The notes below the pieces were generated by a model, which did no database searches, was not told the origin of the DNA, and worked only from the letters and a program-made list of their open reading frames with translations. From Hydrogenovibrio thermophilus (GTDB lineage Bacteria; Pseudomonadota; Gammaproteobacteria; Thiomicrospirales; Thiomicrospiraceae), in assembly GCF_004028275.1 (NCBI RefSeq), contig NZ_CP035033.1, forward strand, positions 1,922,001-1,986,000: a stretch of DNA of 64,000 bases, read 5' to 3'. Positions within the stretch are counted from its first letter, which is position 1, and the number at the start of each line of letters is the position of its first letter. Positions 17,290 through 38,336 of this stretch are shown here, in pieces. The position numbers and the translations under genes are program-made.

Positions 17290-18861
17290 TCAAGCTGAAA
17301 AATCTGCCAGGCTGGGTAGTCTTTCCGCTGGCTGACAGCCGGTAAAATCTCTTAAGGTCGGCATGGTTTGCAACAAACCGGATGCCGACAATTCCTGATA
17401 ACGGTTGTGCAATGCCTTTTCGATTCTCACCGCTTTGGCTTGCGCTCTATCTTTAGAGCCTGGAACGCGTCCGTCGTAATCGCAACGGATGATGATCGGA
17501 ATCGGTCGCCCTTTTTTAACGTTCAGACCTTTAAAAATCTTGATACCGACATCCACATCGTTCACACCTTCTTCCACCGTATCGAGGAAGCTGTAATAAC
17601 TCAGATTGCGAAGTTGCACTTCTTCGAAGCCGTTACCGACGCCGATAAACCTTTCCGCATGACCGATATCGCTATAGCAACCGTTTTCATATCGGTTGAC
17701 ATAGGCCAGTTGCGAGAAATTGTTCGCAATCAACCAGGCAATCAGGGTATTCACCCCTGGCTGAGGTGCGGTAGAGCTTCGATTCAAATTGCAATCGTCG
17801 ATTGCGTGCTCAATCGCTTGCTTCGCCTGGTCTGCCGACAGGTCAGCGGTTTGCTGATATAACTGGTCGGTTTCCACAAAACGCTGCAAACACACCTTGC
17901 CTTGCTCGTTAGGGATATGGATTTTCAAACTGTCGTCGTCGGTATTCATTCCGATCAACAAGGTTTGAACACTGGCACCACACCCGAAACGGTTTTCAAT
18001 TGCCTGCCTAAAATCCTTGAGCTTTGTCAATGCAGCCTCCGCTGCTTTTTGGTCATCACTCCCGTGTGCGGCACAACCTTGATGGGTCGGGTCGGCTTTC
18101 GAAAAGTGATATACCGCAATCTTTAAATAACGCGTCGGTTCTTCAGCCGCATTTGGCTTACCTTCTCTGAACCGCGTGTGTTCAATAAACACCCAGTTTC
18201 TGACACTTTCACTGATATCGAATAATGAACCCGCATGGGCCTTTCTTCTCACAGCGTCATAAGGCAGTCTGAGTACATAACTGACTACATGAGCAAGACG
18301 TCCATCCGCACAAGGCGCAATGCCTACTGCGTGAAACCCTGCTTCTTTAAAAATACGTTCGGCTTCTTGTTTTCGCTGGCCCATTAATGGGTCATTGATA
18401 TAGAAGTCTTCCGACATTCGAATAAATTGTGCAAAGAGGATTTTGGCGTACAGTTTCTGAAACGCTTTCTGAGATTGAAAATTCAATTCAGATTGCCAAT
18501 CGTCTTCTGTCAGCTTTACACCCAACTTTGCAAACAACGTTTGGTTAGCCCAAGCCACAAAGCCCGGTTTGCCCTGCTGCGTCAAAATGTCTTTCAAAAC
18601 GGCTTCGATATCATCAAAACGTGCCTTGATATCCATTTCATAGCGACGCAACAATTCATTTTGAGCCTCGTTAACCAAAACATGAGTGCCGGTCATTGCC
18701 AGAGTTGTATCAACTCTGTCCTGTCTTCCGATTTCATCCATCGTATCCGCTACAACCGTTGAACCATGAGCAGTCGGCTTCTGTTGTTGCCACAAAGGAT
18801 TCGATGGAATCGGCTTCCAGAACAATGACTTTTGACGATAGTTCTTTTTTGTAGAATTCAT
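17290..18861 (-). CDS. csoSCA: CsoSCA carboxysomal carbonic anhydrase (beta-type, epsilon subclass)
   Basis: A 523-residue protein of the normal CsoSCA length. Zinc-site elements are visible: the PCADGRLAHVVSYVLRLP loop (Cys and Asp/Arg dyad) and the THQGCAAHGSDDQ segment (His and Cys). The first ~40 residues are basic and Gln/Ser-rich, resembling the disordered tail that tethers CsoSCA to RuBisCO. The enzyme converts bicarbonate to CO2 inside the shell. It sits between csoS2 and csoS4A, the canonical place. Confidence 0.95.
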   Translation of the reverse strand: MNSTKKNYRQKSLFWKPIPSNPLWQQQKPTAHGSTVVADTMDEIGRQDRVDTTLAMTGTHVLVNEAQNELLRRYEMDIKARFDDIEAVLKDILTQQGKPGFVAWANQTLFAKLGVKLTEDDWQSELNFQSQKAFQKLYAKILFAQFIRMSEDFYINDPLMGQRKQEAERIFKEAGFHAVGIAPCADGRLAHVVSYVLRLPYDAVRRKAHAGSLFDISESVRNWVFIEHTRFREGKPNAAEEPTRYLKIAVYHFSKADPTHQGCAAHGSDDQKAAEAALTKLKDFRQAIENRFGCGASVQTLLIGMNTDDDSLKIHIPNEQGKVCLQRFVETDQLYQQTADLSADQAKQAIEHAIDDCNLNRSSTAPQPGVNTLIAWLIANNFSQLAYVNRYENGCYSDIGHAERFIGVGNGFEEVQLRNLSYYSFLDTVEEGVNDVDVGIKIFKGLNVKKGRPIPIIIRCDYDGRVPGSKDRAQAKAVRIEKALHNRYQELSASGLLQTMPTLRDFTGCQPAERLPSLADFSA

Positions 18862-18890
18862 CTAACACTCACACTTTCGTTACACAATCA

Positions 18891-20888
18891 TTAAGCTCTA
18901 GCACCGCCCGACAAAGTCACTTTCGCGCCCGTGTCGGTATTACCGGATGACCCCGTAATCGGACTCATAGGTACTTCGGCATTGGCCCCTGGCGTAAACT
19001 GCGCAGCCGCCATAGGAGACTGTTTAGCTGTACCACGAACCGACGCATTACGCTGTGCCGCCCAAGGTCCATCCGTACCGGTTACTTTGGAACCTCTGTC
19101 CCATCCGTCACCGGTAATTCTCGACCCTTGTTCCGGCGCTGGCTCAGCCATGGCCACCGGAGCGGCTTGTGCTTGTGCTTGCCCCAGCATCATCGGAAAA
19201 TCCGACTCGCCCGGTGCGGCGGCATTGTTAGAGTCACATACCATGGCCGTTTGATCCTTGCCTTGATAATGCGTCCCGGAAACCAATTCACAAGCACCTT
19301 TTTGTGCACCTGTTAGTCCCTGAGGCCCCGGTTGAACACCTGAAATGGATGGGTTAGCGCCTTGACGCTGCCGAACCTTTATTTCAGTTTGCTGATCAAC
19401 CGAACACAATTGTGTTTGCTCAGCGCCCGTATAAGGTGTGCCGGTTACCGCTTGACAATCACCCGTTTCCGCGCCGGTCATACCGTAGTAAGCACCGCTG
19501 CGTTCCCCTGTGACCTTTTGACCACGGCTGGTTCCAGAAGCCGTTACCTTAGTTGCGGTATCCGTTGCCGGCATTTGACATAAAGTCTCAGCTTCTTCGG
19601 CACTTTGATAACCGGTTCCTGTAACAGACTTACAAGTTCCTGCGTCACCGCCAGTCACCGCTTGCAAACGACCAACCTGCGTTCCTGTCGTGGTATTGCC
19701 TTTTGCAGTTTGCGAAGGCATTACCTTTTGAGGTGCTTTCGCTGGTGTTTTTGGCTTGATCGTTGTCGATTGAGACCGACGATTGTCGCCACCGGTGATT
19801 TTTTCACCACTTTTCTGCGCCGGCTGAGACATCACCGAAAATCCGGTTGCCTTAGCTTTTGCAGGGGTTGCACCACAGTACATTTGGCTTTGGTCTGCCG
19901 GTAAGTACTCGGTCCCTGTAATGGATGAACAAGTCCCTGTTTCGTTACCCGTCATCTTCTCGGCACGTCCGACTTCCGTTCCGCTGACACTTTGACCACG
20001 AGTGGTTTGTGTCTGCGTGACTTTTGCAGGCTTCGCCTCCGGTTGAGAACCACAGTTTGTATGGAACTCTTCCGAACCCAAATACTCCGTGCCACTCACC
20101 AATTGACATGCACCGGTTTCGGCACCTGTCATTTTCTTTTCACCTTGACCGACTTGCGTACCGGAAACAGCTTGACCGCTTAAGGTTTGTGACTCGCCTA
20201 CTTTTTGTGGCAAAGACTCGCTATTTCTCGGTTGGCGCATGGGGCGTGAACCACCAGTTGAACAGGTTTTGCCTTTAGCGCATTTTTCTGCACGAACTTG
20301 TTTTGCAATTTCGCGTGTCGATGCATCCGGGTTCGCCAACTTGGCTTTCGCACCAGATTGACTTGTTCCTTTGGATTTAAAGGCCTCCTGTCCAGCTTTG
20401 CCTTTAGCTTGTGCCTGACGGTATGCCTTCGATTGAAGGCGTCCGCTCGGTTGCACGGCCACTTCAGGTTTTACCGCTTTACGGCGTTCTGAGCGAGCTG
20501 CAGGCTTAGGTGTCTTAGACTGACGAGGTTCCACAATCGGCTCTTCCGGTTTTTGCTTGGCTTTCGCCTTCTGACCAGGGCGAGACGTTGACTTAGCCGC
20601 ATCTGCCGCACTTTTCCCGTGCTTCTGTTGCTGTCTTTTCTGCTTCGCCGCTTCACGACCTGCCGCGGACGCCGGAGTTGGCGCTGCAGCAGAGACTTGA
20701 CGACGAGAGCGAGACGGCTTAGAAGCAACCGGAGTAGGTGCAGGCGCCGCCGTTGTCGCAACCGGCTCGGGTGTGGATGGACGCTGACGAGTCGCTGTCG
20801 AAGCCGACGACTGTCCTCCCTTCCCTTTTACCTGTGATTTTCGGCGTGCAATCGCTGCGGCTCGACCGCTTTGAGCATTGTTACTCAT
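18891..20888 (-). CDS. csoS2: CsoS2 carboxysome assembly scaffold
   Basis: ATG 20888 (MSNNAQSGRAAAIARRKSQ, RBS AAAGGAGG) gives a 665-residue intrinsically disordered scaffold; the upstream extension to 20993 runs into cbbS and is rejected. Three regions are clear. The N-terminal basic ~230 residues carry RuBisCO-binding N-repeats such as GRAAAIARRKSQ and SKAYRQAQAKGKAGQEA. A middle region has five Cys-paired M-repeats of the form TGxxxGxCxxVTGTxYxG...C alternating with RGQxVSGTxVG units. The C-terminal ~100 residues (SRITGDGWDRGSKVTGTDG, NASVRGTAKQSP) contact the shell. I could not decide whether it uses the programmed frameshift known in Halothiobacillus. Confidence 0.95.
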   Translation of the reverse strand: MSNNAQSGRAAAIARRKSQVKGKGGQSSASTATRQRPSTPEPVATTAAPAPTPVASKPSRSRRQVSAAAPTPASAAGREAAKQKRQQQKHGKSAADAAKSTSRPGQKAKAKQKPEEPIVEPRQSKTPKPAARSERRKAVKPEVAVQPSGRLQSKAYRQAQAKGKAGQEAFKSKGTSQSGAKAKLANPDASTREIAKQVRAEKCAKGKTCSTGGSRPMRQPRNSESLPQKVGESQTLSGQAVSGTQVGQGEKKMTGAETGACQLVSGTEYLGSEEFHTNCGSQPEAKPAKVTQTQTTRGQSVSGTEVGRAEKMTGNETGTCSSITGTEYLPADQSQMYCGATPAKAKATGFSVMSQPAQKSGEKITGGDNRRSQSTTIKPKTPAKAPQKVMPSQTAKGNTTTGTQVGRLQAVTGGDAGTCKSVTGTGYQSAEEAETLCQMPATDTATKVTASGTSRGQKVTGERSGAYYGMTGAETGDCQAVTGTPYTGAEQTQLCSVDQQTEIKVRQRQGANPSISGVQPGPQGLTGAQKGACELVSGTHYQGKDQTAMVCDSNNAAAPGESDFPMMLGQAQAQAAPVAMAEPAPEQGSRITGDGWDRGSKVTGTDGPWAAQRNASVRGTAKQSPMAAAQFTPGANAEVPMSPITGSSGNTDTGAKVTLSGGARA

Positions 20889-20947
20889 GCTAAAGCCTCC
20901 TTTTCGTCTTGATGACTCGTTTAATCTCGTTATTCGTTCCGTGCGAA

Positions 20948-21289
20948 TTACATTCCGCGAGGACGGTAAACTACAAAGTTGTGCCCTTGGCACTGAGTGT
21001 AGTTGTCATATCCGATCAAACGAATCAAGTGGTTTGGGTAAGCGGCGCGACAAGCGTCCAACTCAACCAACACTTCATTTGGATCACGTGTACCAAACAA
21101 TGGCAACTTCCACATTCCCCAGTAATGCGCTGAGGCATTGGCCGGATCTTCATGCTCTAGAGCTGGCGTCCAACCCTGGTTGATGATGTAAACAATCTGA
21201 TCGTAAACTTCATCCGCATTGAACTCCGGTAAAAACGAGAAGGTTTCCAACGTGTACTGAGTACGGTAATCATCTGTTTGCATTGACAT
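20948..21289 (-). CDS. cbbS: RuBisCO small subunit, form IA
   Basis: A 113-residue RbcS with [12 protein letters not shown] at the start, the [15 protein letters not shown] segment and [13 protein letters not shown], ending ...[14 protein letters not shown]. The short betaA-betaB loop and the carboxysomal gene order mark it as form IA of the cso type. It follows cbbL by 45 bases, with a GGAGAT-type ribosome site. Confidence 0.97.
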
Positions 21290-21334
21290 TTTTATCTCCT
21301 TGTATTGTTAGGATTCATTCAAATAAGATGCGGC

Positions 21335-22750
21335 TTAGCCCACATCCAATTTGTCAACGGTATCGAACTCGAACTTGATTTCTTTCCAAGTCTCCAGAGC
21401 GACTGCCAATTCTTTACTCGTACGAGCCGCGTCTCTCAAGATGTCTCCACCCTCTCTTTCCAGGTCACGCCCTTCGTTACGTGCTTTAACACAAGCTTCC
21501 AACGCCACACGGTTAGCTGCCGCACCGGCTGCGTTACCGCCTGGGTGACCTTGCGTACCGCCACCGAACTGAAGAACGGAATCGTCACCGAAGATATTCA
21601 CCAATGCCGGCATATGCCATACGTGGATACCACCGGACGCCACGGCCATAACACCTGGCATGGAACCCCAATCCTGATCAAAGAACACACCACGTGAACG
21701 ATCTTCCGGAACAAAGGCTTCACGAAGCTGATCAACGAAACCAAGCGTTGAAGCACGGTCACCTTCCAACTTACCAACAACCGTACCGGTATGTAGGTGG
21801 TCACCACCTGACAAACGTAGACACTTAGCCAATACACGGAAGTGGATACCATGGTTCGGGTTACGGTCGATTACGGCGTGCATCGCACGGTGAATGTGCA
21901 ACAACATGCCATTCTCACGGCACCAGTTCGCCAACGTCGTATTGGCCGTGAAACCTGCAGTCAAGAAGTCATGCATAATGATTGGCTGACCCAGTTCTTT
22001 AGCGAACTCGGCACGCTTCATCATTTCTTCAACGGTACCGGCGGTAACGTTCAAGTAGTGACCTTTACGCTCACCGGTTTCCGCAGTCGCTTTATCAACC
22101 GCTTCGGCGACGAATTCAAAACGATCTCTCCAACGCTGGAATGGTTGTGAGTTGATGTTTTCGTCATCCTTGGTCAAATCCAGACCACCGCGCAAACATT
22201 CATACACGGCACGTCCGTAGTTCTTAGCGGAAAGACCTAGTTTTGGCTTGATGGTACAACCCAACATAGGACGACCGTATTTGTTCAACTTGTCACGCTC
22301 AACTTGAATCCCGGATGGTGGTCCACCACACGTTTTGATGAATGCCATTGGGAAACGTAGATCTTCCAAACGAAGTGAACGTACGGCTTTAAACCCGAAT
22401 ACGTTACCTACCAATGAAGTCAATACGTTTACAACAGACCCTTCTTCGAAAAGATCCAACGGGTAAGCGATGAATGCATAGAATGCGTTCTTGTCACCAG
22501 GTACATCTTCGATTCTGTACGCACGACCTTTGTAGAACTCCATGTCTGTCAACAAATCCGTCCAAACTGTCGTCCAAGTACCCGTTGATGATTCTGCCGC
22601 TACAGCTGCTGCTGCCTCTTCACGCGGTACACCTTCTTGAGGGACAACTTTGAAACAAGCCAATAGATCTGTATCCAGAGGCGTATAATCTGGTGTCCAA
22701 TAAGTCAGCTGGTAATCCTGTACACCAGCGTCAAACGTTTTACTCGCCAT
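21335..22750 (-). CDS. cbbL: RuBisCO large subunit, form IA
   Basis: At 471 residues this is a full-length form I large subunit. Active-site elements are present: [17 protein letters not shown] (catalytic Lys), [11 protein letters not shown] (carbamylated Lys with Asp-Glu metal ligands), [12 protein letters not shown], and the loop-6 region [12 protein letters not shown]. It fixes CO2 onto RuBP inside the carboxysome. It is the first gene of the cso operon, with RBS GGAGAG. The 477-base upstream gap should hold the CbbR-regulated promoter. Confidence 0.98.
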
Positions 22751-24993: not shown

Positions 24994-25587
24994 TCATTCC
25001 GCCGCCAAAGCCCGCCAAGCCGCCTCGGTCAGCTCGTCGAAATGCGTCATCAACGGTGTGCTCAAGACACCGTCCAAATACAGTTGAATCAAACGCAAAA
25101 CGCTGCCATAGGCAATGGACGATGCCACCATCACATCCATTTGTCGCAATACACCGGTTTCCTGTCCTTCCAGAATGACGTCCCGTAATGTCATAAAAGG
25201 TTTCGCCGAGCAGATCGGTTTCACCGACGGCATGAATTCCTTGTGGCGCGCATACAAAATAAACTGCTCCACATCCGGATAGGCTTCCGCAAAACGCAAC
25301 ATCCACTCCACCAAGGCGAAATAACGCGCTTTAACCGTTTGGTGCCGCGCCAAAATATCGGCCTGCTCCGCTTCGATGGTGGCCAGCAAATGGTGCATCA
25401 ACTCCGTGGCCAGCGCTTCCTTGTCTTTAAAGGCATGGTAAATCGAACCGGTGCTGACACCGGAGTGCTCCACCAGGTCCGGAATCGAGGTATTGAAAAA
25501 CCCTTTTTCCACGAACAAGGTCAATGCACTTTGCAAAATACGTTTCTTAGACGGACTGATATCGGAAGCATCGAAAAAATTCGCCAT
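24994..25587 (-). CDS. TetR/AcrR family transcriptional regulator
   Basis: A 197-residue one-component regulator. The N-terminal helix-turn-helix is typical: SPSKKRILQSALTLFVEKGF, then TSIPDLVEHSGVSTGSIYHAFKDKEAL. The C-terminal ligand domain contains several Cys/His (EFMPSVKPICSAKPF) but no recognised binding motif. RBS AGGAGG precedes ATG 25587. Two TAGAA/TTCTA palindromes directly upstream are probable operators, so it likely controls itself and perhaps the divergent bd-like/sulfide dehydrogenase operon starting at 26018. Confidence 0.9.
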   Translation of the reverse strand: MANFFDASDISPSKKRILQSALTLFVEKGFFNTSIPDLVEHSGVSTGSIYHAFKDKEALATELMHHLLATIEAEQADILARHQTVKARYFALVEWMLRFAEAYPDVEQFILYARHKEFMPSVKPICSAKPFMTLRDVILEGQETGVLRQMDVMVASSIAYGSVLRLIQLYLDGVLSTPLMTHFDELTEAAWRALAAE

Positions 25588-26017: not shown

Positions 26018-27475
26018 ATGGATTTAATCAGCTTATATCCAACCTGGTACGAACCAATCGTCGGTTCGGGCTGGGTGGTTGCGCTTATCGCAACCTTTCA
26101 TGTGTTAGCCTCCCACACTTCCGTGGGGGCCGCACTTCTCTTTGCCTACCTGTCTCACAAAGCCTACAAAGAAGACCGTGAAGACTTGCTGGATTTCATC
26201 AAGAAATACGGCCTTTTCCTATTGGTCTTCACCTATGTGGCCGGTTCCATAACCGGTCCGGGCATCTGGTATTCGACCACCGTCGCCAGCCCGAATGGGA
26301 TCGGCGCGCTGATTCACTCCTTCGTATGGAAGTGGGCCACCGAATGGGTCTTCTTCGTGATCGAAGTGGTCGGTGTATATATGATTGTGTATCTGGTCGG
26401 CAAAGTGGATAAGAAAACCCACATGAAGATTTCGCTGATTTTCGGGATTGCCTCTCTGGCCACCATGGTCATCATCGTCGGGATTCTGTCGTTCATGATG
26501 GTTCCGGGAAAAGAGATGTGGTTTGAAGAAGGCGGTTACCTGAACGGTTTCTACGGCACCAACACCTTTGCTCAACTGGGTATGCGTATGGCGTTCATGT
26601 TCACCATGACCGCGGTGGTCGGCGGTATCATCATCTCCGGCATCAAAGACCCGGCCTTCAAAAAGGAAATGGCGCGTAAATTGGGTTGGCTGGGGATTAT
26701 CTCCACCTTGATCGGTGCGGCCATGTTCCAATGGTATATGACCTCCGTTCCAGGCCAAGCGATTCTGGTCATGGAAAACCGTTTGCCGGATTACTTCCAG
26801 GCCAGCATCATGGCGGTCTTGGCAGGTACCCTGGCGTATTTCATCATCACCATGCTACGTCCTCAAGTATTGGTTCAAGGCTTTGCCGGTGCCATGGCGG
26901 TCATCATTCTGGTGGCCGGTCTGTGGCCGGAGGAAACCGCACGTGAATCCATGCGTAAACCCTGGGTCGCCGGTCAATACGTTTACTCCAACCAGGTCGT
27001 TGGACGCGACGTCCCGGGTATGGACATCAAATCGCAACTGCCAACCATCGAAAAAGTCGGTATCCTCAAGGCGCACCCTTTTACGCCTGAACACCTGAAA
27101 GAAGTCAATAACGGCAATATGATCCAAGCCGGTGAATTCATCGCCATGACCTATTGTTCAAACTGTCACTCGCCAAGTGAAAGCGGCATTCGTCCGCTAC
27201 ACCGTTACTTCCCGGACGGCATCACGCAAGCACGCATGGAAGAGTATGTACGGGGTGTCCTCACCACCGGCAACATCGCTTACATGCCGAAAATGCCGAT
27301 GCTGGAGTCGGAAGTCAAAGCCTTGTCGGCCTTCTTGGTCATGAACAAGGAAGGCGGACAAGCCGCCGTCACTGCGGCGATTGACAAAGAAATTTCAGAC
27401 CGTGACCGTGCGTTGGCCATTAAACAAGCCGACGACAAAGTTGCACGTCTGACCGTTGAACAGGAGGGCAAATAA
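26018..27475 (+). CDS. Cytochrome bd-like (CydA-type) membrane subunit fused to a c-type heme domain
   Basis: 485 residues: about nine membrane helices (1-310) followed by a soluble domain with one heme c motif, CSNCH at 380-384, and a candidate Met ligand in PKMPM. The membrane part resembles CydA. FHVLASH (His28) near the N-terminus corresponds to the FH of CydA helix I. TEWVFFVIEV has Glu109 and Glu116, like the oxygen-site acids. MRKPWVAGQYVYSN recalls the GRQPW motif with Q changed to K. CydA itself has no heme c and has a Q-loop, which I do not see here. It probably receives electrons from cytochrome c and/or exchanges them with quinone or oxygen. It is the first gene of a six-gene operon; RBS GAGGAA. 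Confidence 0.75.
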   Translation: MDLISLYPTWYEPIVGSGWVVALIATFHVLASHTSVGAALLFAYLSHKAYKEDREDLLDFIKKYGLFLLVFTYVAGSITGPGIWYSTTVASPNGIGALIHSFVWKWATEWVFFVIEVVGVYMIVYLVGKVDKKTHMKISLIFGIASLATMVIIVGILSFMMVPGKEMWFEEGGYLNGFYGTNTFAQLGMRMAFMFTMTAVVGGIIISGIKDPAFKKEMARKLGWLGIISTLIGAAMFQWYMTSVPGQAILVMENRLPDYFQASIMAVLAGTLAYFIITMLRPQVLVQGFAGAMAVIILVAGLWPEETARESMRKPWVAGQYVYSNQVVGRDVPGMDIKSQLPTIEKVGILKAHPFTPEHLKEVNNGNMIQAGEFIAMTYCSNCHSPSESGIRPLHRYFPDGITQARMEEYVRGVLTTGNIAYMPKMPMLESEVKALSAFLVMNKEGGQAAVTAAIDKEISDRDRALAIKQADDKVARLTVEQEGK

Positions 27476-28722
27476 TGGATGCTGCTCAAGTTGCTCAGGT
27501 TACTGAGATGATGTATGCCCTGCGTAACCCCGCAGGGATTCCAACCTATCCGATTGTTTTCATTGCGTTAGGGGTATTGACCTTCGCCATGCACATTTTC
27601 TTTGTGCAGTTGATGCTGGGCACCTCTTTGATTACGCTCATCGGCGCTTTCAGCCAGAACGCTTACTGGCGTCGCCTGGGCGCCGCCATGCTGGAAATCG
27701 CCAAGGTGTCCGTTTCGGTCGCCATTGTAATCGGGGTCGCTCCGTTGCTGTTCGTGCAGGTCACCTATGATCCGCACTGGTACACGTCCAACGTGCTGTC
27801 CGCCGACTGGGTCATCTCCTTTATCGTCCTTCTGATTCTGGCGTATTGGGCGATGTACTTCTATTACTTCCGCAACAACAAAGAAAAAGACAAAACTCTT
27901 CAGCCGAAATCACGCTGGTCGATGGTTGTCAGCTTGGCGTTGATGTTGGTCGTCGGTTTCATCATGCACAGTTTGACCAAACAAATGTTGCACCCTGAAC
28001 TGTGGCAAGAATGGTATATGCAGAACGGCACCCTGGACTATTCCGGTTCCCAACTGCATGCCTTCAGCCCTTGGCGCTTTGCGTTCTTCATCAGTTTGGC
28101 GATTCCGGTTGCCGGTGCGATGTTGGTCACCTACCGTCGCTTTAAGTCGGTGCGTGAAGATGCCGATCACGACTACTTGAACTGGGCGGCAAGCGTCGGC
28201 AAAAAATGGATGCTGGCCGGTTCGGTGATTTCAACCGTGCTGTACATCGGTTGGATGATGACCTTACCGGAAACTGCCGGCAATTTCGCCACGTCCTTCT
28301 GGGGTATCCTCGGTGGCGCCGCGGTTCTGTTCTACGGTATTTGGGGCTTGATTCGTCTCAGAGGCGAAGCCCGCATCTGCAGCTACATGGCCTTGCCAAT
28401 GGGCCTAGTGGTCGGTTTGATTGTCGCCATCTCACGTGAAGTGTTGCGTTACGACATCCTGAACGGATTCTTCAACTACAGTTTCTTCGACTACAAAGTG
28501 ATTACAGACTGGTATTCCACCGGCTTGTTCTTCCTGACCTTTGCGATTGTCGGCGGTAGCGTCTTGGCTTACTTCCTGACCATCGCTTGGAAAGCCGGGC
28601 AAACCGTCGGCGTTTACACGCCGGGCGAAACCGTCAATAAGATGGGCACCATCGCAATTTGGATCATGACCCTGTGGATGGTCCAGTTCTTTGCGGTTGG
28701 CTTCTATATCTGGTCACTGTAA
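27475..28722 (+). CDS. Second bd-like polytopic membrane subunit
   Basis: A 415-residue protein with roughly ten membrane helices; ATG overlaps the preceding stop by one base. The N-terminus FAMHIFFVQLMLGTSLITL (His40) is a second copy of the CydA-like first-helix pattern. It is followed by VAPLLFVQVTYDPHWYTSN and a helix rich in Tyr/Trp (LAYWAMYFYYF). Conserved-looking charged or liganding residues in the later helices include His (HSLTKQMLHPELW) and SREVLRYDIL. It is not a normal CydB. With the first subunit it probably forms a heterodimeric heme-bearing membrane complex. Heme content is inferred, not shown. Confidence 0.7.
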   Translation: MDAAQVAQVTEMMYALRNPAGIPTYPIVFIALGVLTFAMHIFFVQLMLGTSLITLIGAFSQNAYWRRLGAAMLEIAKVSVSVAIVIGVAPLLFVQVTYDPHWYTSNVLSADWVISFIVLLILAYWAMYFYYFRNNKEKDKTLQPKSRWSMVVSLALMLVVGFIMHSLTKQMLHPELWQEWYMQNGTLDYSGSQLHAFSPWRFAFFISLAIPVAGAMLVTYRRFKSVREDADHDYLNWAASVGKKWMLAGSVISTVLYIGWMMTLPETAGNFATSFWGILGGAAVLFYGIWGLIRLRGEARICSYMALPMGLVVGLIVAISREVLRYDILNGFFNYSFFDYKVITDWYSTGLFFLTFAIVGGSVLAYFLTIAWKAGQTVGVYTPGETVNKMGTIAIWIMTLWMVQFFAVGFYIWSL

Positions 28723-28732
28723 GGAGAAGACA

Positions 28733-29125
28733 ATGAAAAAACAATTATTAACCGTCTCATTCTGTGCCCTCACCCTGGCCGGAACGCACGCTGCGCAAGC
28801 GGATGTTAAAACACCAACGGCCTCCGGCCAGGCCATGGCTTGGCAATGTGCACCTTGCCACGGCACCAACGGGCAGGAACTGCAAGAAGCCATGCCGCCG
28901 TTGGCGGGCATGTCGGTCGAACAATTCACCGAAGCGATGATTGCTTATCGTGAAGGTACGCGCCCGGCGGTCATTATGGACCGAGTCGCGCGCGGCTTCA
29001 CAGATGAAGAAATCAAAGCCATGGCGGAATGGTTCGTCAAACAACCGATGAAGCCTTGGGAAGAAACCAGTTTAAAAGAGTCGTTGGCGGCACAGAAAGC
29101 CGGTTCGACAGGAGGTCAAGAATGA
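28733..29125 (+). CDS. Monoheme class I cytochrome c, periplasmic
   Basis: Start ATG 28733 (MKKQLLTVSFCALTLAG) with RBS AAGGAGA; the 130-residue precursor has a signal peptide ending THAAQA. One heme site, CAPCHG (Cys39, Cys42, His43), and likely axial Met in MPPLAGMSVEQF; the sequence resembles c4/c553-type domains. It overlaps the flavoprotein gene by ATGA. It is probably the soluble or complex-bound electron carrier between the sulfide dehydrogenase and the membrane subunits. Confidence 0.88.
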   Translation: MKKQLLTVSFCALTLAGTHAAQADVKTPTASGQAMAWQCAPCHGTNGQELQEAMPPLAGMSVEQFTEAMIAYREGTRPAVIMDRVARGFTDEEIKAMAEWFVKQPMKPWEETSLKESLAAQKAGSTGGQE

Positions 29126-30453
29126 GCCAATTAGAAAACATGACTTTCGATCGTAAAATCACACGACGCGATCTGATCAAAGTGTTCGGTGCCGCGGCTG
29201 TGGCCGGGACCGGCATTTTCGGCGCAAGTAATAAAGCCTACGCCAAGTCCGCGCCACACGTTGTGGTACTCGGCGGCGGTGTCGGTGGGTCCACTTTTTC
29301 AAAGTACCTGCGATTTGCCGATCCGGACGTCAAAATCACCATCATTGAACAGTATCCGGAATACATCACCTGCTTGCGAAGCAACGACGTCATCGTCGGT
29401 ATGCACACTTTGGATGATTTGACGTTCAACCTGAACACCATCAAGTCAAAATACAACGTGAATGTGGTCATCGACAAAGTCGTCGGTGCCGACTTCGACA
29501 AGAAAACCGTGCGCACCGAAAAAGGCCACAGCTTCCAATACGACAAACTGGTGGTCTCACCGGGTATCGACTTCAAATTTGAAGATTACGAAGGCTATAA
29601 CGCCGAGTTGGCCGCGGGCGATTTCCCGCACGCCTACAAAGCCGGCCCGCAAACCTTGAAGCTGCGCGATCAATTGTTCGGCATGCGTAAAGGCGGCGTC
29701 GCCATTATCGCACCACCGCAAAACCCGTTCCGTTGCCCGCCTGGGCCTTATGAACGCGCGTCCTTCTTTGCGGAGCACTTCAAGAACTTCAACCCGACAG
29801 CCAAGCTGATTGTGTTGGACCCGAAAGAACGCTTCACCAAAGACGTACCGTTCAAAAAAGCTTGGGAACGCCTCTACGGTTATAAAACCGATAACGCCCT
29901 TCTGGAATGGATACCGGGTTCCGATGGCGGTAAAGTCGTTGGGCTGGACGCCAAAAACAAAACCGTCCTCACCGAATTCGGCGAGTACAAAGCGGATGTC
30001 ATCAACATTATCCCGAACCAACGTGCCGGTAAACTGGCGCAAAAACTCGGTTTGACGGATCGTTCCGGCTGGTGCCCGATTGACCGTAACTCGTTCGAAT
30101 CCACGATTCACAAAGAAGTTTACGTTCTGGGCGACAGTAGCATTGCCGATGCGATGCCGAAATCCGGTTACTCCGCCAACTCGCAGGCCAAAGTCTGTGC
30201 GCAAGCGGTGGCCGATACGTTGAAAGGGAATCAACTGCAAAAAGCCATTTACTCCAACGTCTGTTACAGCTTGGCTGGTCAGAACTACGGGGTATCCATT
30301 GCCGCCATCTACGAGGTGCGTGACGGTTTGATTCAGCCAAAAGGCAAATCGGCCGGTGTTTCGCCGATTACCGACAAACCGGCTCAGCCGATTCTCGAAG
30401 CCGTTTATCAAAAGAACTGGCAACGTGAATTTGTGAAAGACGTATTCTCTTGA
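29122..30453 (+). CDS. fccB: Flavocytochrome c sulfide dehydrogenase, flavoprotein subunit FccB
   Basis: 443 residues from ATG 29122 (MSQLENMTFDRK). A Tat signal, KITRRDLIKVFGAAAVAG, sends it folded to the periplasm. FAD-binding VVVLGGGVGGSTFSKYL follows, then YITCLRSNDVIVG, whose Cys corresponds to the residue that covalently binds FAD in flavocytochrome c. The redox-active disulfide pair is likely in PFRCPPGPYE and SNVCYSLAGQNYG. The enzyme oxidises sulfide to sulfur species and passes electrons to cytochrome c. Being co-transcribed with bd-like membrane subunits is unusual; FccB normally pairs only with FccA. The RBS is AGGAGG. Confidence 0.92.
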   Translation: MSQLENMTFDRKITRRDLIKVFGAAAVAGTGIFGASNKAYAKSAPHVVVLGGGVGGSTFSKYLRFADPDVKITIIEQYPEYITCLRSNDVIVGMHTLDDLTFNLNTIKSKYNVNVVIDKVVGADFDKKTVRTEKGHSFQYDKLVVSPGIDFKFEDYEGYNAELAAGDFPHAYKAGPQTLKLRDQLFGMRKGGVAIIAPPQNPFRCPPGPYERASFFAEHFKNFNPTAKLIVLDPKERFTKDVPFKKAWERLYGYKTDNALLEWIPGSDGGKVVGLDAKNKTVLTEFGEYKADVINIIPNQRAGKLAQKLGLTDRSGWCPIDRNSFESTIHKEVYVLGDSSIADAMPKSGYSANSQAKVCAQAVADTLKGNQLQKAIYSNVCYSLAGQNYGVSIAAIYEVRDGLIQPKGKSAGVSPITDKPAQPILEAVYQKNWQREFVKDVFS

Positions 30454-30468
30454 TAAAGGTGTGAGGTA

Positions 30469-31188
30469 ATGACAATGTTAAAACGAACTTTAATTTCCGC
30501 CTGCACGGCCGCCTTTATCGGACTCAGCGGTGCGGCGTTAGCCGGTGGTCACGGTGAAAAGCCAGAGGCCAACCCTTGGACCAACTTCGCGTTGCAGAAC
30601 ACGCTCAACAAAATGCCGGCTGGTAATGCTGCCAACGGCAAAGAATTGAGCGACCAATGGATGTGTGCCGCCTGTCACGGCGAAACGGGTAAATCCCCTT
30701 CCCGTAACTACGCGTCCATCAACGGGATGCCGAAAGAATACACCATCAAAATGATGTTGGATTATCGCGATGGGCGTCGCTGGGAAAACTACAAACAAGC
30801 CAATATTATGGTGAAACTGGCGCAAAGCATGAACGATCAGGAAATCGCCGATTTGGCGGCTTTCTATGCCGAGCAACCGCTGACCAACTGGACAGACAGC
30901 ACCGATGTTGATCCTAAAATTGACCGTTTGGTACGTAAAGGTGACGTCAATCGTATGATTACGCCTTGTGCGTCCTGCCACGGTGTACACGGTGAAGGCC
31001 ACGGTGTCGTACCGTCCTTGGCCGGTCAGGTACCGGAGTACTTTGTCCGCACCATGAAAGCCTATCAGGACGGCCAACGCCATAACGACGTCAACCAAGG
31101 GATGTCGCAATTCACTCATGACCTGACCGACGAAGAAATTCAAGGTCTGGCGGATTACTACGCAGCCATGCCGGCTGTTAAGGAGTAA
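30469..31188 (+). CDS. Diheme cytochrome c (FccA/c4-like) subunit
   Basis: 239 residues with signal peptide (ALAGGHG) and two heme c motifs, CAACH at 66-70 and CASCH at 167-171, each followed by a c4-type domain with a candidate axial Met (INGMPKEY and VNQGMSQF). It sits 15 bases after fccB, the place of the diheme FccA subunit in flavocytochrome c operons. It is therefore the likely immediate acceptor from the FAD of FccB. The two halves look like an internal duplication. Confidence 0.88.
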   Translation: MTMLKRTLISACTAAFIGLSGAALAGGHGEKPEANPWTNFALQNTLNKMPAGNAANGKELSDQWMCAACHGETGKSPSRNYASINGMPKEYTIKMMLDYRDGRRWENYKQANIMVKLAQSMNDQEIADLAAFYAEQPLTNWTDSTDVDPKIDRLVRKGDVNRMITPCASCHGVHGEGHGVVPSLAGQVPEYFVRTMKAYQDGQRHNDVNQGMSQFTHDLTDEEIQGLADYYAAMPAVKE

Positions 31189-31192
31189 TATT

Positions 31193-31291
31193 ATGAATGG
31201 CATTAAAGCAATTATCTGGGGCTTGATCCTGACCTTTGGTTCAGTCGCACTGATGTGGTGGCTGAGTACCATCACCGTCGTCGCGGTTTAA
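31193..31291 (+). CDS. 32-residue single-pass membrane peptide (CydX-like position)
   Basis: ATG 31193 begins four bases after the diheme cytochrome stop, with GGAG in the end of that gene as ribosome site. The product is one hydrophobic helix (MNGIKAIIWGLILTFGSVA, then LMWWLSTITVVAV) and stops at 31291, just before the terminator. Small one-helix peptides (CydX, CbdX) are known accessory subunits of bd oxidases, so a similar role in this complex is likely. Nothing but size, hydrophobicity and position supports it. Confidence 0.6.
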   Translation: MNGIKAIIWGLILTFGSVALMWWLSTITVVAV

Positions 31292-31314
31292 GCCCAACCC
31301 ACTCTCCTCAGCCG

Positions 31315-31351
31315 ACCTCCCTTTTCAGGATGAAAATGGGAGGTTTTTTTA
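31315..31351 (+). terminator. Rho-independent terminator of the sulfide/bd-like operon
   Basis: ACCTCCC...GGGAGGT, extended by TTTTC/GAAAA, closes a small loop and is followed by TTTTTTT. It lies 24 bases after the 32-residue gene. Confidence 0.9.
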
Positions 31352-35616: not shown

Positions 35617-37389
35617 ATGTCGGACAACGCCTCGTCTTCGTCGCCGCCCCAAGCCTCAATCGAACCGCGCAACACCTTGGCGGTGTCCATTTCCGGCTCC
35701 GGCGGCACCGGCGCCGTCACCGTCGGGTTGATTCTGCTGGACGCGGTGGCCAAGGCGGGCTTTTACGGCGTAATGAACCGCTCCTTCGGTCCACAGATTC
35801 GCGGCGGAGAATCGGCCGTGATGCTGCATTTTTCCGACCGGCCCATCGAAACCCTTGCCGAATTCTCTCACCTGCATCTGGCATTGGATTGGTTAAAGTT
35901 CGAACGTTTCCACGATGAAATCCCGCTGACCTCGGACAGTCTGGTGATTTACGACAACAGCCGTGAAAAACCGCCAGGCCTGGTGGAAAACACCGGTGCC
36001 ACCTTGATTGGCGTCGCCTTGCAAGAAGCGGTGCGTAACCTCAAAGGTAGCCGCATCAACATGTTCGCGCTCGGCATTCTCGCCCAACAAATCGGCCTGT
36101 CGTTGGACACCTTAGAAGCCGCCCTGCGCAAAACCCTCGGCAAAAAAGGCGACGAGGTTGTCCAGCAATCGCTGGAAGCCGTCAAAATCGGCACCACTCT
36201 GGTGGCGGAAACACCCTATTGCCGTCTGCCGGATTGGACGCCCACCGACACGCCGCGCTGGAACATCAGCGGCAACGAAGCTTGCGGACTGGGCGCCCTG
36301 CGCGGCGGCTTGAAGCTGGCCGCGGCCTATCCGATCACCCCCGCCACCGACATTGTCGAATACCTTGCGCCGCGCATCGAACAACTGGGTGGCAATGTAC
36401 TGATTGCCGAAGACGAGCTCGCCGCCATGAACATGGTCATCGGCGGTTCTTTCGGCGGTTTGCCGAGCATGACCGCCACCTCCGGCCCCGGCTTTGCCTT
36501 GATGACCGAAGCCATGGGCCTCGCCATCGCCAGCGAAACACCCGCGCTGGTGGTGACGGTGATGCGCGGCGGGCCGTCCACCGGCATTCCCACCAAATCC
36601 GAACAAACCGATTTGAACCAAGTGCTGTATGCTTTCCACGGTGAAGCGCCGCACGTGGTGGTTGCACCGTTGAACGTGCAGGAAATGGTGCCGATTTCAC
36701 AATGGTCGCTCGGTCTGGCCGAAGCCCTGCAAACGCTGGTGGTGGAAGTCACCGACCAGCATTTGGGACAATGCCGCGCCATTATCGACCCGGTGCCGCC
36801 GCAGGATTTCGGGTTGCAACGCAAAACCGCCACACCGCAGGAAGGCGCTTATCGCCGCTACCAACTGACCGAAGACGCCATTTCACCAATTGCCTGGCCG
36901 GGCATGCCGGACACCCAATACACCGCCGACGGCCTGGAACACACCGAAGTCGGCGTGCCGTCCTCAATGGCCTCCGACCATTCGGAACAACTGGCGAAAC
37001 GCGCCCGCAAAATCGCCGAGTTCGATTACGGCGACCGATGGGCCAGCCTCGACCTGCCACCGAAAACCAAAACCGTCGTCATCACCTGGGGTTCCAGTTA
37101 TGAAGCGGTGCGCGTGGCCATCGACAACCTGAATGCCGACGGCGCCAACATCGGCTTGATCGCTTTGCGTCTGTTGATGCCGCTGCAAACCGACGCCTTG
37201 CAAAAACACTTCAAAAGCAAACAGGTCATCGTCATCGAACAAAACGCCAGCGGCCAGTTGTATCATTATCTGCTGTCGCAAAATGCGATTCCGGTCAAAG
37301 CCGTTTCTATCGCCGAAGCCGGGCCGATTCTGTTCAATCCCGCCCGTGTCGAACACCACTTGACCGCCTGTCTGGAGAATAACCAATGA
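35617..37389 (+). CDS. korA: 2-oxoacid:ferredoxin oxidoreductase, fused gamma-alpha subunit (KorA-type)
   Basis: 590 residues. The gamma domain comes first (SISGSGGTGAVTVGLILLDA, FGPQIRGGESAVMLHF, ~1-190) and the alpha domain follows (AAYPITPATDIVEYLAPRIE, GLPSMTATSGPGFALMTEAM). This layout is found in 2-oxoglutarate:acceptor oxidoreductases. With KorB it interconverts 2-oxoglutarate and succinyl-CoA with ferredoxin, which in such autotrophs completes a modified Krebs cycle and can supply biosynthetic 2-oxoglutarate. The stop overlaps korB by four bases. Substrate preference (2-oxoglutarate against pyruvate) is inferred from the fusion type. Confidence 0.85.
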   Translation: MSDNASSSSPPQASIEPRNTLAVSISGSGGTGAVTVGLILLDAVAKAGFYGVMNRSFGPQIRGGESAVMLHFSDRPIETLAEFSHLHLALDWLKFERFHDEIPLTSDSLVIYDNSREKPPGLVENTGATLIGVALQEAVRNLKGSRINMFALGILAQQIGLSLDTLEAALRKTLGKKGDEVVQQSLEAVKIGTTLVAETPYCRLPDWTPTDTPRWNISGNEACGLGALRGGLKLAAAYPITPATDIVEYLAPRIEQLGGNVLIAEDELAAMNMVIGGSFGGLPSMTATSGPGFALMTEAMGLAIASETPALVVTVMRGGPSTGIPTKSEQTDLNQVLYAFHGEAPHVVVAPLNVQEMVPISQWSLGLAEALQTLVVEVTDQHLGQCRAIIDPVPPQDFGLQRKTATPQEGAYRRYQLTEDAISPIAWPGMPDTQYTADGLEHTEVGVPSSMASDHSEQLAKRARKIAEFDYGDRWASLDLPPKTKTVVITWGSSYEAVRVAIDNLNADGANIGLIALRLLMPLQTDALQKHFKSKQVIVIEQNASGQLYHYLLSQNAIPVKAVSIAEAGPILFNPARVEHHLTACLENNQ

Positions 37390-38336
37390 GCACCGACGCC
37401 TTGAACCACGTGGAAGTCAGAACCACACAAAATGCCGCCGAATCGGATAATCCCGCTAAGCCTGCCAGACCGGCCAAACCCAATGATTATATGTCCGACA
37501 TTCACCCGGTCTGGTGTCCGGGCTGCGGTCACTTTTTCATTTTGCGCGCCTTGACCAAAGCCCTGGCCTGGTTGAATTTGCCGAAAGAGAAAATCGGGCT
37601 GGTGTCCGGCATCGGGTGTTCCTCCCGCTTGCCCGCCTACCTGGATGTGTACGGATTCCACGGCGTCCACGGACGTGCTCTGGCCGTGGCCAGCGGCTTG
37701 AAATTGAATCGCCCGGATTTGACCGTGTTGGTCGCCGGCGGCGACGGTGACGGCTACTCCATCGGCGGCAACCACTTCATTCACGCCTGCCGTCGCAATA
37801 TGAACATGACCTACATCGTCATGGACAACGAAGTTTACGGTATGACCAAAGGCCAACCGTCGCCCACCACCGCGCCGGACTGGCACAGCAAACTCGCGCC
37901 GCACGGCACCGGCATCCGCTCCTTCAACCCACTGGGCATTGCACTGGCCTCCGGCGCCAGCTTTATCGCCCGCGGTTTTTCCGGCGACCCGAACGGCTTG
38001 AGCAAATTGATTGTCGAAGGCATTCAGCACAAAGGCTTTTCGTTGATTGAAGTGAAAAGCCCCTGCGTGACCTTCCGCCCCGAAGAAAAGGAATGGCAAA
38101 AAACCATGCGCCCGTTGAATGTCGAACCCACGTCCGACGTCATCGAAGCCGCCAAAGCCATTCACGCCAGCGACGGCTTCGATACCGGCATTTTCTATCA
38201 GGCCGATTTGCCGATTTACCCGGACGGTGACAGCACGGTCAAAACTGGGCAAACCGAACAAGCCACCTCCGAAGCATTGGCCGACGACCAGGCGCAAACC
38301 ATCCTGAACCGTATTGAAGAGGGCCATTTGGTATGA
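37386..38336 (+). CDS. korB: 2-oxoacid:ferredoxin oxidoreductase beta subunit (KorB-type)
   Basis: 316 residues. The thiamine-diphosphate and 4Fe-4S subunit: WCPGCGHFFILRALTKAL and SGIGCSSRLPAY hold cluster cysteines, GGDGDGYSIGGNHFIHACRR with MDNEVYGMTKGQPSPT forms the GDG...N cofactor motif, and SPCVTF has the last Cys. It works with the preceding gamma-alpha subunit. The first ~35 residues are a low-complexity leader. ATGA overlap on both sides ties it to korA and the next gene. Confidence 0.9.
   Translation: MSTDALNHVEVRTTQNAAESDNPAKPARPAKPNDYMSDIHPVWCPGCGHFFILRALTKALAWLNLPKEKIGLVSGIGCSSRLPAYLDVYGFHGVHGRALAVASGLKLNRPDLTVLVAGGDGDGYSIGGNHFIHACRRNMNMTYIVMDNEVYGMTKGQPSPTTAPDWHSKLAPHGTGIRSFNPLGIALASGASFIARGFSGDPNGLSKLIVEGIQHKGFSLIEVKSPCVTFRPEEKEWQKTMRPLNVEPTSDVIEAAKAIHASDGFDTGIFYQADLPIYPDGDSTVKTGQTEQATSEALADDQAQTILNRIEEGHLV

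Follow-up and report, generated by a model that had tools for sequence, protein, structure and literature searches.

The operon and its encoded proteins

The window considered here is the whole stretch of 64,000 nucleotides that was analysed, positions 1922001–1986000 of the 2.61-Mb single-contig genome of Hydrogenovibrio thermophilus. On its plus strand at 26018–31291, reading of the open reading frames (ORFs) gives six genes in one operon, which joins the sulfide dehydrogenase subunit FccB and two cytochromes c with two membrane proteins, referred to as MbA and MbB, and has a terminator 3' of gene 6. The features are as follows.

26018–27475, plus strand: MbA (gene 1), 485 aa, bd-type (CydA-like) membrane protein with a C-terminal CxxCH cytochrome c domain
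27155–27169, plus strand: CSNCH heme c attachment motif of MbA (residues 380–384), with M423 as candidate sixth ligand
27475–28722, plus strand: MbB (gene 2), 415 aa, second bd-fold membrane protein, paralogue of MbA
28733–29125, plus strand: gene 3, FccA-like exported monoheme cytochrome c, 130 aa, with PDB profile matches to FccA chains
29122–30453, plus strand: FccB (gene 4), PF21706 and PF09242 above cut-off, match to 1fcd_A, catalytic cysteines
30469–31188, plus strand: gene 5, exported diheme cytochrome c, cytochrome c4-like, 239 aa, match to 6q2u_A
31193–31291, plus strand: gene 6, 32-residue single-helix protein with relatives in seven other loci
31314–31350, plus strand: intrinsic terminator, hairpin 31314–31345 followed by a T run, −17.6 kcal/mol, z −3.2

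The junctions in gene order are a 1-base overlap, a 10-base gap, a 4-base overlap, a 15-base gap and a 4-base gap. The junction between gene 3 and FccB is an ATGA overlap, and an alternative, longer FccB ORF from 29029 begins within gene 3. In a shuffle control of the folding energy, 1 of 200 shuffled sequences was as good as the hairpin at 31314–31345. The hairpin is not among the 8 sites listed by a simple promoter/terminator consensus scan, which is uninformative because shuffled sequences give a mean of 7.6. An earlier interpretation made without database searches (the sequence-only reading) had described a six-gene plus-strand operon with overlaps of 1–4 bases or short gaps and a terminator, and the gene coordinates and the hairpin confirm it.

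The best PDB match of FccB is 1fcd_A (E = 8e-118). Matches to sulfide:quinone oxidoreductase (SQR) reach 1.8e-14 at best and cover the N-terminal part, whereas FccB chains give 1e-112 or better, so that SQR is not the closest family. The leader is of the twin-arginine translocation (Tat) type by direct reading, with a weak Pfam TAT match (0.049). The catalytic cysteines C205 and C381, which form the redox-active pair, are present in all 41 FccBs that are linked to MbA in the manner described below. In the alignment with 1fcd, the cysteine that binds flavin adenine dinucleotide (FAD) covalently is C84 in the window FccB and is present in 12 of the 41 linked FccBs and missing in 29. The closest PDB matches of gene 3 are the FccA chains 5n1t_B (9.1e-14), 3vrd_A and 1fcd_C. 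Genes 3 and 4 therefore match the two chains of FccAB, with the catalytic cysteines kept. However, canonical FccAB passes its electrons to a soluble cytochrome c, whereas here the genes share one operon with a putative membrane acceptor, and FccB lies on a separate branch.

Gene 5 matches the cytochrome c4 6q2u_A (1.8e-20) over residues 51–231, i.e., 181 residues; cytochrome c4 is a donor of cbb3 oxidase (PDB 8smr/8snh), whereas gene 5 is encoded beside a bd-like module instead. The PDB and Pfam matches and the Tat-type leader bear out the monoheme cytochrome, exported FccB and diheme cytochrome named in the sequence-only reading. The 32-residue protein has relatives in L005, L006, L007, L009, L011, L012 and also L159, and was not found in most other linked loci; of 37 linked loci scanned for ORFs behind gene 5, 5 have a short helix-like one with a motif resembling a ribosome site. 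With so narrow a distribution, its candidacy as a universal subunit resembling CydX was rejected.

The membrane proteins MbA and MbB

Searched alone, the MbA and MbB of the window matched no CydA or CydB model in Pfam/NCBIfam at E ≤ 0.1 and no membrane-protein family above its cut-off, and their profile searches matched the membrane parts to no solved structure. Profiles of their relatives matched in the PDB only cytochrome c domains for MbA and nothing for MbB. The label "CydA-like" is therefore given because of the relatives, the predicted fold and the profile comparison, and not because of the window proteins' own family matches. The relatives are the best 80 of 569 confirmed ones, a collection that leans to close relatives. 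The MbA alignment (71 rows) omits 9 loci that are near-copies or fragments, and the MbB alignment (60 rows) consists of the loci in which a closed MbB frame was read; MbB was matched in 111 of 113 loci.

The CydA family PF01654 matches 39 of the 71 MbA-type proteins, with a best value of 6.1e-11, although the window MbA itself gives no match at E ≤ 0.1, and the MbA profile matches a profile of 13 CydA proteins with a probability of 82.7 and an E value of 9.5e-6. The predicted structure of MbA (predicted local distance difference test, pLDDT, 88.0; predicted template modelling score, pTM, 0.83) has eight long hydrophobic helices, one fewer than the nine membrane helices of CydA. When this model was compared with the PDB using Foldseek, ranks 1–19 were all bd-oxidase chains (best E 2.3e-6). 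The heme c domain occupies the place of CydA's last helix. The sequence-only reading of gene 1 as CydA-like with a C-terminal CxxCH is thus upheld by the CSNCH motif, the bd fold and the PF01654 matches of the relatives. Positive charges are concentrated in the short loops that follow helices 1, 3 and 5; therefore, both ends of MbA and its heme c domain would lie outside.

The residues H28, E109, E310, R313 and K314 and the CxxCH residues C380, C383 and H384 are invariant in all 71 rows of the MbA alignment, and E116 and M423 are each found in 70 rows and H135 in 62. In the MbA–CydA profile alignment, read by eye, H28 corresponds to the helix-1 His (CydA H19), E116 to the second Glu of helix 3, and H135 and T149 to CydA's further-on His and Ser. 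E109 and E310 were matched to CydA by motif, E310, which is outside the profile alignment, by motif spacing alone: E310-x-x-R313-K314-P315 has the spacing of E-x-G-R-Q-P in CydA. The proton-path acids E109 and E116 align with E99 and E107 of E. coli CydA. The active-site heme ligands, namely the helix-1 His, the helix-3 Glu and the Glu before R-Q-P-W, are all kept, as H28, E109 and E310. MbA is a member of the cytochrome bd superfamily by predicted fold and active-site ligands.

The likeness to the cytochrome bd quinol oxidase (CydA/CydB) thus comprises the fold of both MbA and MbB, the ligands of the two high-spin hemes, the proton-path acids and the Glu-x-x-Arg-(Gln/Lys)-Pro motif. However, MbA differs in more than its eight helices and fused heme c. 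Between membrane helices 6 and 7, there is a loop of 16 residues in 70 of the 71 rows and of 14 in the remaining one, whereas the matching stretch of CydA has 82–154 residues in 13 of 13 proteins. The absence of the Q-loop and the change of GRQPW to RKPW, both claimed from the sequence, are confirmed, the latter at residues 313–316. According to passages of PMC8951039, the ligands of heme b558 are His and Met, and the other two bd hemes are held by His and Glu. The b558 His column of MbA holds Gln in 53 rows, His in 17 and Met in 1, and it divides with linkage: Gln stands in 39 of the 40 FccB-linked rows and His in 1, whereas His stands in 15 of the 25 rows without FccB. No conserved counterpart of the b558 Met was found in the expected helix in the 71 rows. 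Furthermore, the E109–E116 spacing is 7 in 71 of 71 MbA rows and the corresponding spacing is 8 in 13 of 13 CydA. The same passages tie one extra leucine at this place to the heme arrangement and describe the G. thermodenitrificans enzyme as having no such leucine. Because its spacing is one shorter than that of CydA, MbA may share the heme arrangement of the G. thermodenitrificans enzyme.

The predicted structure of MbB (pLDDT 91.0, pTM 0.89) gave bd-oxidase chains at Foldseek ranks 1–11, with a best value of 3.3e-5, and the MbB profile matches the MbA profile over 281 columns (probability 95.4, E 1.9e-8). None of the 60 MbB-type proteins matches PF01654, no CydB model matched either, and H40 is present in 60 of 60 rows. 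Because the two profiles match each other and both proteins have bd-oxidase fold matches, the module consists, like CydAA' enzymes, of two paralogues with the bd fold rather than of CydA plus CydB. This paralogy, the loss of the b558 His and the genome distribution described below are new beyond the sequence-only reading.

Families of the bd superfamily without a quinol site, OR-C and OR-N, were reportedly described by Murali et al. in 2021. OR-C carries a C-terminal cytochrome c, which would fit the CxxCH of MbA in 71 of 71 rows, and MbA/MbB probably belongs to the OR-C branch. The pair lacks the features of the qOR class, namely the Q-loop, the His and Met ligands of b558 and the CydB partner. 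The split into qOR, OR-C and OR-N is given in passages of PMC13189123, PMC11707229 and PMC10839748, and the OR-N CydAA' enzymes are described in passages of PMC10839748 and PMC12342949 as two CydA paralogues thought to use cytochrome c, paired like MbA and MbB. The passages on OR-C and OR-N give no link to a sulfide dehydrogenase, in which the present operon differs from them. In full-text searches of one open-access library, no title or abstract describing this operon was found.

Linkage between the membrane pair and FccB

In the bacterial family of the window, MbA is found in 42 of 62 genomes. FccB lies nearby on the same strand for 43 of the 44 MbA copies with at least 54% identity, at a distance of 3.4–4.05 kb from MbA or next to an adjacent tandem copy, and the sole copy without FccB (G048) ends at a contig edge. 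This count omits a 33-residue match in G017, and the distance of −2123 recorded in G024 belongs to the neighbour of a tandem copy. None of five further MbA copies near 50% identity has FccB. Among the best 80 relatives, MbA is closest to proteins of Thiomicrorhabdus and Thiomicrospira.

Of the 71 MbA rows, 40 are FccB-linked, 25 are not, and the other 6 are located at contig edges. On the tree, the linked rows group together, with 2 state changes when the contig-edge rows are left out, and the linked loci belong to 13 named families of Beta- and Gammaproteobacteria, from Comamonadaceae and Sutterellaceae to Chromatiaceae and Thiotrichaceae. In L026, L033, L036 and L040, the order is cytochrome c–FccB–MbA–MbB–diheme cytochrome, so that the set is kept despite rearrangement. 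The partnership of a bd-like module with FccB, first proposed from the window alone, is thus conserved. The sequence-only reading had also named what would speak against it; in the event, bd oxidases proved to be the nearest structures in the PDB, no row departs from the active-site heme ligands and relatives keep the gene set together.

In the FccB tree, the 41 linked FccBs and one unlinked FccB form one branch with a support of 99, and the other 13 of the 14 unlinked FccBs lie outside it; these 13 all come from the window's bacterial family and are a narrow sample. The unlinked FccB on the linked branch stands in a cytochrome c–FccB–diheme cytochrome trio of locus L027, whose MbA-linked FccB is absent from the tree, as is any FccB row from L147, one of ten fetched regions, a false ORF having hidden the gene in both cases. 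The linked FccBs are about 40–55% identical to other FccBs. The evolutionary distances of MbA correlate with those of FccB (r 0.67, n 36) and MbB (r 0.94, n 28), and none of 2000 permutations was as high. In a class-wide sample of 185 genomes, 16 were matched, of which 11 were dropped because the cytochrome c part alone matched at <26 bits. MbA thus occurs in 5 genomes, including the window's own, with MbB following in 5 of 5 and FccB in 3 of 5, which indicates that the operon is rare in the class and stable where present.

Within the window's bacterial family, the half of the operon with FccB and gene 3 occurs in two versions, while MbA and MbB are alike. The MbA proteins of L005, L006, L011 and L012 are 78–88% identical to that of the window and their FccBs 44–47%, whereas in L007, L009 and L010 the values are 78–88% and 79–82%, respectively. 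L007 carries two operon copies in tandem, one of each version, and G024 two tandem MbA copies.

MbA–MbB pairs without FccB were also observed, at 8001–12943 of L002, 8010–12554 of L004 and 6001–8567 of L003. Pairs of this kind lie on plasmids of Methylosinus, between feoB and methanobactin genes, and of Agrobacterium; in both, an ATP-binding protein with a histidine-kinase-like annotation and a response regulator follow. In Thermus, the pair stands alone. Little is drawn from the neighbour listing for loci without FccB, since in 5 of 28 loci the crude ORF picker failed to recover the anchor gene. PF01654 also matches frames of 806 and 606 aa in L143 and L144, at 69 and 67 bits over 229–236 profile positions; these divergent matches are possibly further unusual proteins of the bd superfamily. 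A divergent TetR gene of the window (24994–25587, minus strand) was considered as a regulator and rejected: tblastn found TetR only in L001 (the window itself), L085, L009, L110 and L111 of 113 loci, many of which are short, and so few loci indicate no general link between TetR and the operon.

Proposed electron path and terminal acceptor

Among 26 genomes with the linked operon, a heme-copper oxidase (PF00115) is found in 22 and the cytochrome b of bc1 (PF13631) in the same 22. In the other 4, PF00115, PF13631 and CCP_MauG (PF03150) are all absent, other sinks for cytochrome c not having been searched for. These are Sutterella wadsworthensis 2_1_59BFAA, Duodenibacillus massiliensis and two uncultured Duodenibacillus, i.e., two named strains and two metagenome bins, with no completeness stated for any. 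With neither bc1 nor a heme-copper oxidase, MbA/MbB is the only encoded acceptor known to us, if FccAB works there; this argument is compatible with either O2 or quinone as the onward acceptor. The gut-associated Sutterella and Duodenibacillus (L056, L057, L063 and L064) carry the whole set of sulfide dehydrogenase and bd-like genes, which suggests sulfide use or removal in the gut.

From the genes, the fold, the ligands, the missing Q-loop and the linkage, we infer the heme content, an electron path, sulfide as the donor and O2 as the acceptor. FccB, exported folded by Tat, would oxidise sulfide in the periplasm, as its family does and as its catalytic cysteines suggest. The monoheme cytochrome of FccA type, the diheme cytochrome of c4 type or both would accept its electrons and hand them on to the heme c domain of MbA, which the eight-helix topology of the predicted structure and the charge pattern would place in the periplasm. 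From this heme c, the electrons would reach two high-spin hemes held by H28/E109 and E310, where O2 would be reduced with cytoplasmic protons, and MbB would stand as the second membrane subunit in the place of CydB, with H40 as a possible heme ligand. Since the FccB-linked branch has no quinol site and carries Gln in the b558 His column, electrons would enter there by heme c in place of quinol and heme b558. O2 is favoured over quinone because the ligands of the O2 site are conserved and genomes without bc1 or a heme-copper oxidase were found. The sequence-only reading had offered both acceptors, and it is supported as far as the bd-like module with a fused heme c, the missing Q-loop and the FccB partner are concerned, with O2 now preferred.

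We therefore consider it fairly probable that the operon encodes a sulfide oxidase bypassing quinone, in which electrons flow from sulfide through FccB and the c-hemes to MbA/MbB and O2. E. coli bd oxidases resist sulfide according to passages of PMC4815019; therefore, if bd-type sites in general do so, the enzyme could respire where heme-copper oxidases are poisoned. The fuller proposal is roughly an even call: a self-contained sulfide:O2 oxidoreductase, gut Sutterella and Duodenibacillus included, made of FccAB, c-hemes and a bd-type O2 site of two CydA paralogues, with heme c replacing quinol and b558, which is independent of quinone and works at sulfide levels that block heme-copper oxidases. 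If true, it would assign a physiological electron donor and a substrate to one branch of the bd superfamily, for which donors have been a matter of guesswork, and provide a route to respire sulfide with O2 without quinone, a sulfide-consuming path in gut bacteria, and a testable case of how heme c can take over from quinol and heme b558 as the way for electrons into an O2-reducing site.

Several findings weigh against the quinone-independent sulfide oxidase. The MbB profile does not match the CydA profile significantly (probability 1.1). Common descent contributes to both distance correlations. FccB is not nearby in 25 of 71 MbA rows and is present in only 3 of 5 class-wide cases; therefore, a tie of the membrane module to sulfide is not universal. 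Conversely, unlinked FccBs exist with their own cytochromes, and the divergence of the FccB/gene 3 half beside similar MbA and MbB indicates that the contacts are not tightly specific. In the 22 genomes with a heme-copper oxidase and bc1, the module is not the sole sink, and all four Sutterella/Duodenibacillus genomes have an ordinary CydA, by which electrons could reach O2 via quinone.

The last point bears on a sulfide:quinone route, in which MbA/MbB would pass the electrons of FccAB and cytochrome c to quinone, if necessary at the expense of the proton motive force, and from there to other quinol-dependent enzymes that reduce O2 or other acceptors, or to CO2 fixation. Autotrophs need uphill electrons, and the window has RuBisCO and carboxysome genes at 17290–22750; in the gut genomes, the canonical CydA could drain the quinone pool. 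Behind the bd oxidases, Foldseek matched both MbA and MbB distantly to the quinone-handling membrane subunits of alternative complex III (ActC/ActF, NrfD-like), which is a weak match with E of at least 0.04, and the operon has no iron-sulfur or molybdopterin-type partner. By literature potentials, the transfer from FccAB to ubiquinone would be somewhat uphill, which counts against this route. Since MbA has no quinol-site region and keeps invariant O2-site heme ligands that a quinone reductase would not need, the quinone route is judged unlikely.

A role of the membrane module as a device that scavenges O2 or nitric oxide or senses redox state, kept reduced by FccAB and not conserving energy, would accord with the ATP-binding protein and response regulator that follow the plasmid pairs of Methylosinus and Agrobacterium. 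The window operon, however, has no regulator genes, none was seen in FccB-linked operons by tblastn with the window genes, a search not aimed at kinases, and the two cytochromes beside FccB suggest flux; such a role is quite unlikely. Slightly less likely still is that the substrate of FccB is a different reduced sulfur compound or a thiol, with the onward path unchanged. The separate branch of linked FccBs, their identity of about 40–55% to others and the covalent-FAD cysteine in only 12 of 41, the window FccB among them, would allow it, whereas the catalytic cysteines in 41 of 41 and 1fcd_A as the best PDB match (8e-118) argue for sulfide. That a canonical FccAB feeding a general cytochrome c pool lies by coincidence beside an unrelated membrane pair is hardly credible: passages of PMC6382920 report unconserved fccAB surroundings in four named sulfur bacteria, but the linkage in 43 of 44 copies and 13 named families and the set kept after reordering contrast with this, and the separate branch of linked FccBs contradicts mere adjacency.

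Two other gene groups were observed in the window. The carboxysome operon at 17290–22750, on the minus strand near the sulfide module, encodes the RuBisCO large subunit, CsoS2 and a carboxysomal carbonic anhydrase. At 35617–38336 on the plus strand, there are two genes of a 2-oxoacid:ferredoxin oxidoreductase with POR_N/POR and TPP_enzyme_C domains.

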